Virus record (IMG/VR): IMGVR_UViG_3300017971_000001
Location: 62,001-126,000 of that record
DNA from: a virus
Reading direction: 5' to 3' (one strand)
DNA: 64,000 nt
In this document: piece after piece, positions 21,661-62,753 of the stretch
Layout of the letters: every line of letters begins with the position of its first letter
Numbering within the stretch: position 1 is the first letter of the stretch
Program-made: the position numbers and the translations under genes
The notes under the pieces: model-generated
The model's input: only the letters and a program-made list of their open reading frames with translations
Database searches by the model: none
What the model was told of the DNA's origin: nothing

Positions 21661-22028
21661 AGAGGGACCTCGAACACGAATTCCCTGGGCCCGGCGGCAA
21701 AACAAACAGAGACCGAGCGACCGCTGTAGCTGGTCATGTTGACCGGAACTTCCTTCTCTACAGTGATTCTGGGGAGGTAGGTGCCGCAGATCATGCACAT
21801 GCTTGGGCGCAAGGAAATATGGTGGTCAGTCGGAAGACCGAGCTCAGCTTTCAGCTTCTCGTGAATGAGCTCTGTGAAACGAGGCGCGGAGACCTGAACG
21901 CTCAGGCGGAAAGCTTCTGGGTGCTCGCCCCGCCTGCACATGTCGCGCAGGCGACTGGCTACCTCTTCAGGGGTGGGTAGCTCGGCCGAGGACCTGGCGC
22001 GCTTCCTGGACGTTGAGTCGGTTGTCAT
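21657..22028 (-). CDS. Hypothetical protein, 123 residues
   Basis: ATG 22028 lies 5 bases after a solitary CRISPR-like repeat. An N-terminal helical part (TPEEVASRLRDMCRRGEHPE) precedes MCMICGTYLPRITVEKEVPV and a beta-rich end. Function unknown; the repeat in its leader is the notable feature. Confidence 0.65.
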   Translation of the reverse strand: MTTDSTSRKRARSSAELPTPEEVASRLRDMCRRGEHPEAFRLSVQVSAPRFTELIHEKLKAELGLPTDHHISLRPSMCMICGTYLPRITVEKEVPVNMTSYSGRSVSVCFAAGPREFVFEVPL

Positions 22029-22033
22029 GCCTA

Positions 22034-22069
22034 TGGGCAGGTAAATGGGCCCCCGCCGGGACCTGTTAG
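22034..22069 (-). repeat. Solitary CRISPR-like repeat in a gene leader
   Basis: Matches the array repeat at 28 of 32 central positions, about 29 kb from the array. On the minus strand the hairpin arms become GGCGGG and CCTGCC, so pairing survives through a G-T wobble. It fills most of the gap between the genes at 22066-22524 and 21657-22028. Confidence 0.7.
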
Positions 22070-51194: not shown

Positions 51195-51216
51195 GTGGCA
51201 GGTAAATAGGCCCCTG
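51195..51216 (-). repeat. Truncated CRISPR repeat in the MT-A70 leader
   Basis: Matches the first 22 bases of the + strand repeat (GTGGCAGG to CCCCTG) and then diverges. It keeps the hairpin except its outer pairs, 35 bases before ATG 51160. It is either the decayed leader-distal repeat or a regulatory copy. Confidence 0.7.
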
Positions 51217-51248
51217 TCATGAAGGCCGCATGGCGGAGCGAAAGCAGC

Positions 51249-51937
51249 GTGACAGGTAAATAGGCCCCTGCCAGGACTTGTTGCTCGAGTCCGCCGCCGA
51301 CCAAGCCCTCGGGCTGCTCAGTGTGACAGGTAAATAGGCCCCTGCCAGGACTTGTTGCTTGGGGTCAGCCGCGGAGCAAAGGGAGTCTGCTGTCGTAGCA
51401 GGTAAATAGGCCCCTGCCAGGACTTGTTGCGACCTCGCCCCTCGTCGAGGTCGTCGGCGAGGTGGCAGGTAAATAGGCCCCTGCCAGGACTTGTTGCCAC
51501 CCGCCGCCTCAAGGGCGGCTCTCGGTATCAGAAGTGGCAGGTAAATAGGCCCCTGCCAGGACTTGTTGCCAGAAAAATCGCCTCCTACATATAGGGGGTC
51601 GCCCTCAAGTGGCAGGTAAATAGGCCCCTGCCAGGACTTGGTGTGTCATGCAGCACTTCTTGGACGCGATCAAGGTTGCCCGCGTGGCAGGTAAATAGGC
51701 CCCTGCCAGGACTTGTTGCCGGCACGATCCCGCTCGCGACGCTGGAGTCGTGGCAGGTAAATAGGCCCCTGCCAGGACTTGTTGCCCGCTGGGCAGAGGA
51801 GGCAAAGGTGGCCTCGGGTCTCGTGGCAGGTAAATAGGCCCCTGCCAGGACTTGTTGCGGCGCTCAATCGCGATCGCAACGCGCCGCCCACCGACCCCTC
51901 TGTGGCAGATAAATAGACCCCTGCCAGGACTTGTTGC
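51249..51937 (-). CRISPR. CRISPR array, ten 36-base repeats
   Basis: Repeats begin at 51249, 51323, 51395, 51462, 51534, 51609, 51684, 51750, 51823 and 51902; nine spacers are 38, 36, 31, 36, 39, 39, 30, 37 and 43 bases. On the minus strand the repeat reads GCAACAAGTCCT then hairpin GGCAGG-loop-CCTGCC then AC, so the hairpin sits at the 3' end before the spacer, as in type V crRNAs. This is the cas12 strand and the array starts 11 bases after cas12. The cas-proximal repeat has two substitutions; the one at 51609 has a degenerate end. Orientation is inferred from the hairpin. Confidence 0.95.
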
Positions 51938-56667: not shown

Positions 56668-56743
56668 GTGGCAGGTAATAGGCCCCTGCCAGGAATTGTT
56701 GCCGAGAATGGCAGGCAAATAGGCCCTTGTTGGACTTACTGCC
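56668..56743 (-). repeat. Two degenerate CRISPR-like repeats in a divergent promoter region
   Basis: First copy 56668-56702 (35 bases, one A fewer, otherwise one substitution); second 56708-56743, with about nine differences; they are separated by 5 bases, too short for a spacer. They sit in the 158-base gap between leftward 56645 and rightward 56805, where promoters for both units must lie. Confidence 0.75.
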
Positions 56744-58353: not shown

Positions 58354-58425
58354 GCTGGAGTAGCTCAACCGGCAGAGCACTCGCCTTGTAAGCGAACGGC
58401 TGCGGGTTCGACCCCCGCCTCCAGC
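58354..58425 (+). tRNA. tRNA-Thr (anticodon UGU)
   Basis: 72 bases. Acceptor arms GCTGGAG/CTCCAGC pair fully; D-arm AGCTCAACCGGCAGAGC; anticodon loop CTTGTAA with TGT; T-arm GCGGGTTCGACCCCCGC. CCA not encoded. Complements codons common in GC-poor hosts or supplies translation demand; inference. Confidence 0.9.
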
Positions 58426-58584
58426 TTGCGCAGCCCGCGACGGTCGCGGTGCGTCGCGCGTTCAAGTGGTTACGTTTTTAAAGTGAGTCAGGAACGATCA
58501 GCGAGAATCGTTAAGCGCGCGCTTCGGATACGGGGAGTCCTGCACGGCTCAACACCGACCCCCTGCAAAGCGCGCTCTCGTCAT
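58426..58584 (+). ncRNA. Structured spacer between two tRNAs, possible small RNA
   Basis: 159 bases without ORF support. Two strong inverted repeats: AACGAT/ATCGTT near 58492-58512 and GCGCGCTT/AAGCGCGC (outer arms near 58516-58575), enclosing GGGG...CCCC. No T-arm (GGTTCGA) is present, so it is not a third tRNA. Confidence 0.35.
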
Positions 58585-58655
58585 GGCCCCGTCGACTAGT
58601 GGTTAGGTCACCAGCCTTTCAAGCTGGCTGCGCGGGTTCGAGTCCCGTCGGGGTC
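58585..58655 (+). tRNA. tRNA-Glu (anticodon UUC)
   Basis: 71 bases. Acceptor GGCCCCG/CGGGGTC (one G-T pair), anticodon loop CTTTCAA with TTC between CCAGC and GCTGG, T-arm GCGGGTTCGAGTCCCGT. Typical of tRNA-Glu; CCA not encoded. Confidence 0.9.
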
Positions 58656-58669
58656 AAAGGAGAAGAGAA

Positions 58670-59966: not shown

Positions 59967-60521
59967 CTAGAAAGAGTATTTCTTCAGCGAGTGGTCGGCC
60001 ATGACCTTCGTGAACGTGCTGCGGACCGACCACTCGCTTCCGTCGGTCCGCTTGAGCGCCTTGCAGAGATCGCGCACGAGCGGGCTCGGGAACTCGCCCT
60101 GGGTCTTGCTGCTGGCCCGCTTCTTCTTCGTCCTGCGTCGTGAAGTCGTCAAGAGAGCTCCTCTCAGTGAGCCCAAAGGCTCCTTCTTCTTGGATTCGGG
60201 GCGCGGCGGCGTCGAGAAGAAGCTGCTCGCACGGCGCTTCTTGGTCTTCTTCCGAGGCTTGCGAGGCCTCATGATCTCCTCGGACGCCTCTTGCTGCTCC
60301 GGGTGGGAAACGATCGGCGTCTCGTCGTCCGGCTTGAGCGCGCGGGCGCCACGGACCAGCGAGCGACCGCTGACGTTCCCCTGGGCGTCGACCCGACGGA
60401 CCTTGAACTCCGTGCCGCCACCCTCCTTGGACTGCTTGGCGATCACCTTGACTCGAGTCGGGGTGCCCTGGATCGAAATCTTCCAGGTCGAACCGATCTT
60501 GACTTTGCTTGCGCTTGCCAT
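59967..60521 (-). CDS. Basic protein with SH3-like N-terminus, 184 residues
   Basis: KIGSTWKISIQGTPTRVKVI, then FKVRRVDAQGNVSGRSLVRG suggests an SH3/KOW barrel; a Lys/Arg/Ser-rich linker (RKPRKKTKKRRASSFF) and a helical tail follow. Nucleic-acid binding likely. Its Shine-Dalgarno lies in a hairpin. Confidence 0.65.
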   Translation of the reverse strand: MASASKVKIGSTWKISIQGTPTRVKVIAKQSKEGGGTEFKVRRVDAQGNVSGRSLVRGARALKPDDETPIVSHPEQQEASEEIMRPRKPRKKTKKRRASSFFSTPPRPESKKKEPLGSLRGALLTTSRRRTKKKRASSKTQGEFPSPLVRDLCKALKRTDGSEWSVRSTFTKVMADHSLKKYSF

Positions 60522-60528
60522 GTAAGAC

Positions 60529-60578
60529 TCCTGGCCGGGCTGTGGGGGGGGCTTGAGTGAAAGAAGGCCCGGCCAGGA
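60529..60578 (-). promoter_or_regulatory. Large hairpin covering the ribosome site of 59967-60521
   Basis: 12-base perfect arms (60529-60540, 60567-60578) with a 26-base loop. On the minus strand the AGGA of the Shine-Dalgarno AGGAG is in the 3' arm, 8 bases before ATG 60521, so folding would hide it. On the + strand it is followed by TTTCTTTCATTTT and could terminate rightward transcripts. Confidence 0.6.
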
Positions 60579-60602
60579 TTTCTTTCATTTTAGCAGCCAG
60601 GG

Positions 60603-60815: not shown

Positions 60816-61010
60816 CTAGCGGCAGGTAAATAGGCCCCTGCTAGGACTTGCTGCTTCACGAATTTCCGCCGGCGCGACCTCGTTCGCCCGAGCACGCTTC
60901 CTTGATTCTCGATCCGAACGAACCTTGGTCAACGCACAGATCCGGTCCATGATCTGCGAGCCCGATTCCTCAGCACCGAGCCCATGGAAGCAATCGAGCT
61001 CGGCGCTCAG
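60816..61010 (-). CDS. Hypothetical protein, 64 residues, apparent CTG start, CRISPR repeat as its end
   Basis: The frame begins at CTG 61010, which overlaps the TGA of the upstream gene (CTGA), and reads (L)SAELDCFHGLGAEESGSQIM...RANEVAPAEIREA. Its last 12 codons (ASPSRGLFTCR) are the solitary CRISPR-like repeat. No ATG/GTG/TTG start of similar quality exists. Confidence 0.5.
   Translation of the reverse strand: MSAELDCFHGLGAEESGSQIMDRICALTKVRSDRESRKRARANEVAPAEIREAASPSRGLFTCR
60819..60854 (-). repeat. Solitary CRISPR-like repeat, 33 of 36 identical
   Basis: Differs from the array repeat at positions 2, 24 and 33. Hairpin kept except the base pair at its foot. About 9 kb from the array, upstream of the gene at 60603-60761 and overlapping the end of 60816-61010. 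Confidence 0.8.
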
Positions 61011-62166: not shown

Positions 62167-62753
62167 GCTCCACCCACTCCACGCTCGATCCGAACGCAGT
62201 TCCACTTGATCGAGGTGCGGTCGGAAAACGGGTTCGAGACGAGCTCGCTTCGATACACCCCGTTGTTGTCGAGCACGAGGCACGAGGCACCCGATCGAAC
62301 GTTGAGGGCGTCTCGCTCGGCCAGGGTCTTGACGACCATGAAGGGATAGCCGGGGGGAGACGAGGACAGGCGGGCAACCGCATGCCAGCGGTGATCTTCG
62401 CCGTAGCGGAACACGCGGCGTTGCTGCTGGGCGTAGATCGTCAGACCCGGCTCGCGGATCTCGCGCGGGACCGTGTGCAAACTGTCCGCGTCCGCGACCT
62501 CCCGAAAGAGCGCGCGGAGCGAGGTCAGCTGCTCCTCGCTCAACGACCTTCCCTCCTGGCGCAGCCAGTTGATCTTGTCCCAGACCCCAGGAATGCGCCC
62601 GTCCTGCTGAATCGTCAAGACGGCCTCGAGCAAGCGGTCGATCACCTCGCCGCCGTCATTGAGGCGCAGCAGCGACCAGTAGAGCTCTTCGGTGGCCTCG
62701 TAGTCGCCCTCCTTGGCGGCGCGCTCGAGTCGCCGAATTCGCTCGTCGCTCAC
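62163..62753 (-). CDS. Hypothetical protein with LERAA motif, 196 residues
   Basis: GTG 62753. SDERIRRLERAAKEGDYEAT is shared with 23532 and 34347. A helical body (LLEAVLTIQQDGRIPGVWDK), then LTIYAQQQRRVFRYGEDHRW, close to VALYAQTQRGEK of the gene at 38369, suggesting common ancestry of parts. Confidence 0.65.
   Translation of the reverse strand: MSDERIRRLERAAKEGDYEATEELYWSLLRLNDGGEVIDRLLEAVLTIQQDGRIPGVWDKINWLRQEGRSLSEEQLTSLRALFREVADADSLHTVPREIREPGLTIYAQQQRRVFRYGEDHRWHAVARLSSSPPGYPFMVVKTLAERDALNVRSGASCLVLDNNGVYRSELVSNPFSDRTSIKWNCVRIERGVGGA

Follow-up and report, generated by a model that had tools for sequence, protein, structure and literature searches.

A CRISPR repeat copy between two co-directional phage genes as a candidate leader element for the phage's own Cas12m

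The window analyzed here is a stretch of 64,000 nucleotides (bases 62001-126000) from a virus record that is 245,276 bases long, the phage that we refer to as G000. It encodes a Cas12m-like effector with a CRISPR array directly 3' of the effector gene, and it also contains an off-array copy of the array repeat between two open reading frames, P0003 and P0002 (Table 1). The relevant strand of this copy is the minus strand, which is also the direction of the flanking genes. Since the stop codon of P0003 (22066-22068) lies in the 5' tail of the repeat and an ATG of P0002 (22028) lies 5 nt past its end, the repeat fills the gap between the two genes. No Shine-Dalgarno sequence is evident before the ATG at 22028, and a codon-usage gene caller (a custom program rather than a published gene finder, which misplaces some starts) favors the ATG at 21941, so the start of P0002 is uncertain. 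The spacing of 5 bases between repeat and gene given by an earlier sequence-only reading of this DNA is thus correct for the ATG at 22028 but does not agree with the start that the caller prefers.

Table 1. Features of the window and of the G000 contig (window positions, except where a contig position is given)
Feature	Position	Strand	Remarks
Off-array (ectopic) V-M repeat	22034..22069	-	28/36 to array repeat
Stem 1, 5' strand, GGUCC	22059..22063	-	by analogy to the Cas12m2 crRNA (PMC10442227) and pair counts
Stem 1, 3' strand, GGCCC	22047..22051	-	last pair G-C (array A-U); middle U-C mismatch as in array
Pseudoknot helix, 5' strand, GGCGGG	22052..22057	-	
Pseudoknot helix, 3' strand, CCUGCC	22036..22041	-	one G-U for the array's A-U
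Would-be guide if the site gave a crRNA	22008..22033	-	contains ATG 22028
Upstream ORF P0003, 152 aa	22066..22524	-	stop codon within the repeat's 5' tail
Downstream ORF P0002, 123 aa	21657..22028	-	start 22028 or 21941
CRISPR array, 11 repeats	51195..51937	-	51195 repeat degenerate in 5' half
Cas12m-like effector, 707 aa	51948..54071	-	RuvC residues DED-type by alignment
Off-array repeat	56668..56702	-	22 nt before GTG start, AAGGAGGT between
Off-array repeat, degenerate	56708..56743	-	paired with the 56668-56702 copy, 5-nt gap
Off-array repeat	60819..60854	-	leader of small ORFs
Off-array repeat	contig position 241870-241905	+	fifth off-array G000 copy

Read on the minus strand, positions 22069-22034 give CTAACAGGTCCCGGCGGGGGCCCATTTACCTGCCCA, and the array repeat on the same strand is GCAACAAGTCCTGGCAGGGGCCTATTTACCTGCCAC. 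All of the identities between the two fall inside the central 32 positions, where 28 of 32 match, in agreement with the sequence-only reading. The best chance match to the array repeat in shuffled windows is 20-22/36, base composition predicts approximately 1e-5 sites with 28/36 identities in the window, and a covariance model built with the array repeats as its only input recovers the site with E=1.4e-6. The relation of this site to its cognate array repeat therefore exceeds chance.

Searches around the site returned little else. We found no promoter-like site near 22034, no relatives of P0002 in IMG/VR or INPHARED, and no DNA similarity to the region in INPHARED, and these searches yielded no diverged relative in which the copy is conserved. 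Pattern scans with the G000 repeat matched only a near-identical contig, IMGVR_UViG_3300017991_004323 (L009, L010), which has the same cas12m and breaks off within the array, probably because the assembly broke at the repeat. An Rfam search of the window returned only two tRNAs, namely the tRNA-Thr(tgt) and tRNA-Glu(ttc) genes at 58354-58657 on the plus strand.

The effector is a Cas12m homolog that matches the PADLOC Cas12u1 model at 3.2e-74 and a solved Cas12m structure (PDB 23vw) at 3.5e-43 over residues 122-658; judged by this homology, it is a type V-M Cas12m. Its adjacent array is built of repeats that are predicted to form the Cas12m stem and pseudoknot and that end in AC, and the same plan is seen in other V-M loci, so that by sequence and scaffold features the effector and array together are type V-M. 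Systems of this type bind DNA in a guide-directed manner without cleaving it and recognize a TTN PAM; for the G000 system, the searches described below yielded no protospacers. The RuvC residues of Cas12m2 are HDD, a difference from those of the G000 effector. At the end of the array (51195-51284), the degenerate last repeat is preceded by a spacer of just 18 nt.

The copy at 22034 had been described as solitary, and it is not: four more off-array copies are present in the 245-kb contig, and the next match after those listed in Table 1, in the whole record, has an E value of only 1.3. In the pair at 56668-56743, read on the minus strand, the first copy is degenerate and has an alternative fold, and the second is short of one loop base. 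Elsewhere, at 60535-60585 on the minus strand, a long inverted repeat (AATCCTGGCCGGGCC ... GCCCGGCCAGGAGT) that contains AGGAG lies a few bases before an ATG at 60521; its first arm matches the CRISPR repeat at 23/36 positions, which is near chance.

The crRNA scaffold of Cas12m2 consists of a stem and a pseudoknot, with protein contacts to A(-2) and C(-1) and with its first seven nucleotides disordered (PMC10442227). Both helices can be formed at 22034-22069. All six pairs of the pseudoknot helix are retained, one of them by a change from A-U to G-U (A16 to G, opposite U31), which bears out the earlier suggestion that the hairpin is kept by wobble pairing; one stem-1 pair changes from A-U to G-C, and the U-C mismatch in stem 1 is common to the array. 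The copy otherwise differs at its 5' end (two bases), at one base of the linker, and in its final two bases, which are CA for AC. The A(-2) C(-1) 3' end is thus absent, and the copy ends in CA (or without the A). This changed end is a real weakness, given that Cas12m2 reads the AC base-specifically (PMC10442227). Moreover, the pair counts of the G000 copies alone are no better than those of shuffles (229/500). For the 22034 copy by itself, the evidence is weaker on account of this 3' end and of the uncertain downstream start codon, and we interpret it in part by analogy with the more numerous copies of other Cas12m phages.

We sought such phages by scanning IMG/VR with Cas12m alignments and by a protein search of INPHARED. 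Those considered here are Rctr197k (KX853510) and the IMG/VR contigs G001 (193,006 bases), G002 (175,906 bases, to which G003 is nearly identical), G004 (105,713 bases), and G005 (177,773 bases). The compared Cas12m proteins are 27-35% identical, and the repeats of these phages differ in sequence and have a common plan. Copies of a phage's own repeat are scattered genome-wide in G001 (~33), G002 (~20), and G005 (~36), approximate counts obtained from BLAST matches and thresholds for ungapped matching. Rctr197k contains a single clear off-array copy, which lies 23 nt 5' of a tRNA-Met gene, and G004 has no dispersed copies beyond its array region. We saw no regular array beside the cas12m gene of G005, where unevenly spaced copies lie before and after the gene. 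A model of the G000 repeat has no matches in the other loci, so each phage has its own specific set of scattered copies. The additional contigs that carry the G002 repeat are near-identical to G002 and therefore offer no usable divergence.

Dispersal is not seen for every repeat. The repeat of a second CRISPR array in Rctr197k, which adjoins a transposase-like gene, is not dispersed in that genome, and in plasmid pMESIL02 of Allomeiothermus silvanus, copies of the V-M repeat are confined to the array region. The first spacer of the second Rctr197k array (L034 4190-4455, KX853510) resembles position 93556 of the same genome (83% over 33 nt, E=0.002), a possible self-match. Two off-array repeats in G002 (62486-62597, L088) are inverted with respect to one another, such that their would-be guides are one 40-nt stretch read on opposite strands. 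G002 also has a second array, with the variant AAAAGAT/ATCTTT, that spans both contig ends (1-420 and 175767-175880), which suggests that the genome is circular or terminally repeated. Five G005 copies (1838, 16879, 142152, 156323, and 157768) have an extra 30 nt upstream in common (TAAGCTCTGATCAGGATTTGCTAATGC), and the four of these with callable flanking genes are antisense to them.

The larger sets allow the scaffold to be followed across copies. Among 32 distinct copies in G001, standard pairs make up 97.8% of pair cells, and three pairs have changes on both sides; unpaired positions of the 5' tail differ in 24-55% of copies as compared with 0-18% for paired positions. None of 500 shuffles reaches the G001 pairing values, and slid versions of the pairing drop to 18-40%; the shuffles overstate significance because copies within one genome are related, a fault from which the slid controls are free. 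In G005, the pseudoknot helix changes from G-C to A-U in 9 copies and from U-A to C-G in 3, and stem 1 is paired in 104/108 cells. Judged by these substitutions, the G001 and G005 copies maintain the pseudoknot of the Cas12m crRNA through compensatory changes, and the conserved part of the scattered copies is the scaffold that Cas12m would hold, with its structure apparently under selection.

With genes called by codon usage, 84 of the 94 off-array copies in four phages are intergenic, as compared with 18-20% of random sites: 52/58 in G000, G001, and G002 combined (20% for random positions within those loci) and 32/36 in G005 (18%). We had dropped raw counts of ORF cover and next starts, which are too blunt in a GC-rich genome, and used the codon-usage caller instead. 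Copies between co-directional genes are in the sense orientation by 65:6 overall, a total that comprises 38:2 for G000, G001, and G002 (28:2 when clusters are counted once, p=9e-7) and 27:4 for G005. In G000, G001, and G002, the next start follows a copy at a shorter median distance than it does a random intergenic window. In G001, the motif TGnTAnnnT, which has a background rate of 0.003 in the scanned range, starts exactly 17 nt upstream of 7 of the 23 copies that come first in a cluster, the first repeat of the array included. It resembles an extended -10 element and would start a transcript near the repeat.

Copies also lie ahead of cas12m itself. One G001 copy is located 125 nt before the predicted cas12m start. 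In G005, five copies precede the gene, the last of them separated from an ATG by 24 nt that include AAAGGAG; the caller puts this start farther upstream, and an N-terminus at the ATG agrees with those of the other phage proteins. These arrangements suggest that Cas12m meets its own mRNA in both phages.

One reading of the 22034 site, also raised by the sequence-only reading, is that the repeat and its adjoining sequence serve as a small crRNA with full or partial complementarity to DNA of a rival phage, the host, or the phage itself, in the manner of CreR or scaRNA. Any transcript that bears the scaffold could yield a crRNA, the G001 copies with the promoter-like element would start at the repeat, and ectopic repeats that act through guides are known (PMC9458426). 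The guides themselves argue against this. The 26 nt at 22008-22033 have no second BLAST-level match in the 245-kb record, and the rest of the window contains no exact 9-mer seed. At BLAST level, the 26 nt after each off-array copy in G000 and G001 likewise show no match in their own genome beyond chance level or repeat sequence, with one exception in G001, the guide of copy 74134, which has one 22-nt near match (E=0.002). The G000 guides and spacers have no match among INPHARED phages, collections from which most wild phages and hosts are absent. The flank of the 22034 guide in cis is the repeat end CCA rather than the TTN PAM of Cas12m2, and neighboring G005 copies have near-identical 'spacers', as might be left by tandem duplication and unlike acquired spacers. 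A crRNA source, acting perhaps through short or mismatched pairing, is possible in principle, finds no support in these comparisons, and is in our estimation unlikely.

The main alternative for the 22034 copy is a decaying relic, that is, a leftover array unit or a repeat that has spread through the genome and is tolerated between genes. Its 8 changes in 36 positions, its altered 3' end, the non-significant pair counts in G000, and the clear degeneracy of the copies at 56708 and 51195 all fit such a history, and intergenic placement by itself could be explained by selection against insertion in genes. Decay does not account for the sense bias of 65:6, the compensatory changes in G001 and G005, or the fixed distance to the -10-like element in G001, and the core changes at 22034 leave the pseudoknot intact and give stem 1 an additional G-C pair. 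We consider a relic somewhat improbable, and a third reading far more so, in which the copy is an RNA anti-CRISPR that sequesters a V-M effector belonging to the host. Phage solitary repeats can act in this way and are often intergenic (PMC10651486), but here the matching effector and array are encoded by the phage itself. Because the copies, which number in the dozens, fit each phage's own Cas12m system and differ in sequence between phages, the earlier suggestion of a decoy for host Cas proteins is unlikely.

The sequence, position, and orientation of the 22034 copy, the structural conservation of its class, and the recurrence of that class in other Cas12m phages are observed directly. Of the roles proposed earlier, a Cas12 site in an mRNA fits these observations best, at least in part: the copy is sense-oriented between co-directional genes, and three further Cas12m phages show this arrangement dozens of times, in some cases before cas12m. 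We therefore lean, with a little less than even confidence and partly by analogy, toward a leader element that is bound, and perhaps processed, in cis by the phage's own Cas12m. On this reading, 22034-22069 would be a copy of the Cas12m crRNA scaffold that stands outside the array, between two phage genes of the same direction, and that belongs to a class of scattered scaffold copies in several Cas12m phages. Its sense transcript would fold into the Cas12m pseudoknot, and the phage's Cas12m would bind the folded leader and perhaps cut on its 5' side; Cas12m proteins do cut pre-crRNA within repeats (PMC11013384). The effect would be exerted in cis on the transcript, either by blocking or tuning translation of the next gene or by splitting two messages, and the copy would supply no guide to a distant DNA target. 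The same action on the copies before cas12m in G001 and G005 would give autoregulation of Cas12m.

Autoregulation by RNA-binding proteins is well known for ribosomal proteins. The likeness lies in the recurrence of the protein's natural RNA ligand ahead of its own gene in G001 and G005; the differences are that the protein here is a CRISPR effector and that the regulation is a proposal from sequence. With type V-M CRISPR-Cas, the G000 system shares a 36-nt repeat, the stem and pseudoknot, and a Cas12m-like effector directly beside the array, and it differs in that copies lie outside the array, between genes and in the sense direction, and in that the 22034 copy is without the AC ending. Racr RNAs, or phage solitary repeat units, are defined as single repeats whose element contains no associated repeats or cas genes (PMC10651486). 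Like the 22034 copy, they resemble one CRISPR repeat and lie in intergenic phage DNA, in some cases just past a promoter-like element (PMC10651486), but the 22034 copy falls outside the solitary-repeat-unit definition because an array, cas12m, and four other copies are in the same contig. Here, cas12m and repeats of the same family occur in one genome, the copies are numerous and precede phage genes, and the presumed partner is the phage's own effector. The nearest regulatory precedents are CreA and scaRNA, regulatory ectopic repeats that act via guides (PMC9458426). Those of the CreTA and scaRNA systems are degenerate, off-array, and tied to a co-encoded effector, and they are thought to regulate genes (PMC9458426); the 22034 copy is likewise a degenerate off-array repeat linked to a co-encoded effector. 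There, a guide acts on one target, whereas here we found no target, the copies occupy different leaders by the dozen, and the system is phage-hosted and type V-M. In the open-licence literature, we came across no account of V-M repeats being dispersed in phages, most subscription papers and preprints being beyond our reach.

A broader proposal, which we regard as possible but doubtful, is that in a group of phages Cas12m is a largely guide-independent RNA-binding regulator of dozens of leader scaffolds, its own included. The array would then be secondary or dispensable; no regular array is seen beside cas12m in G005. A comparative set of four phages and ~94 copies is already at hand. If Cas12m binds leader scaffolds without a guide, a CRISPR effector would be a genome-wide regulator of the virus's own genes, which would differ from the CreA and scaRNA precedents in that these need a guide, and phages would have grounds besides defence for retaining Cas12m.
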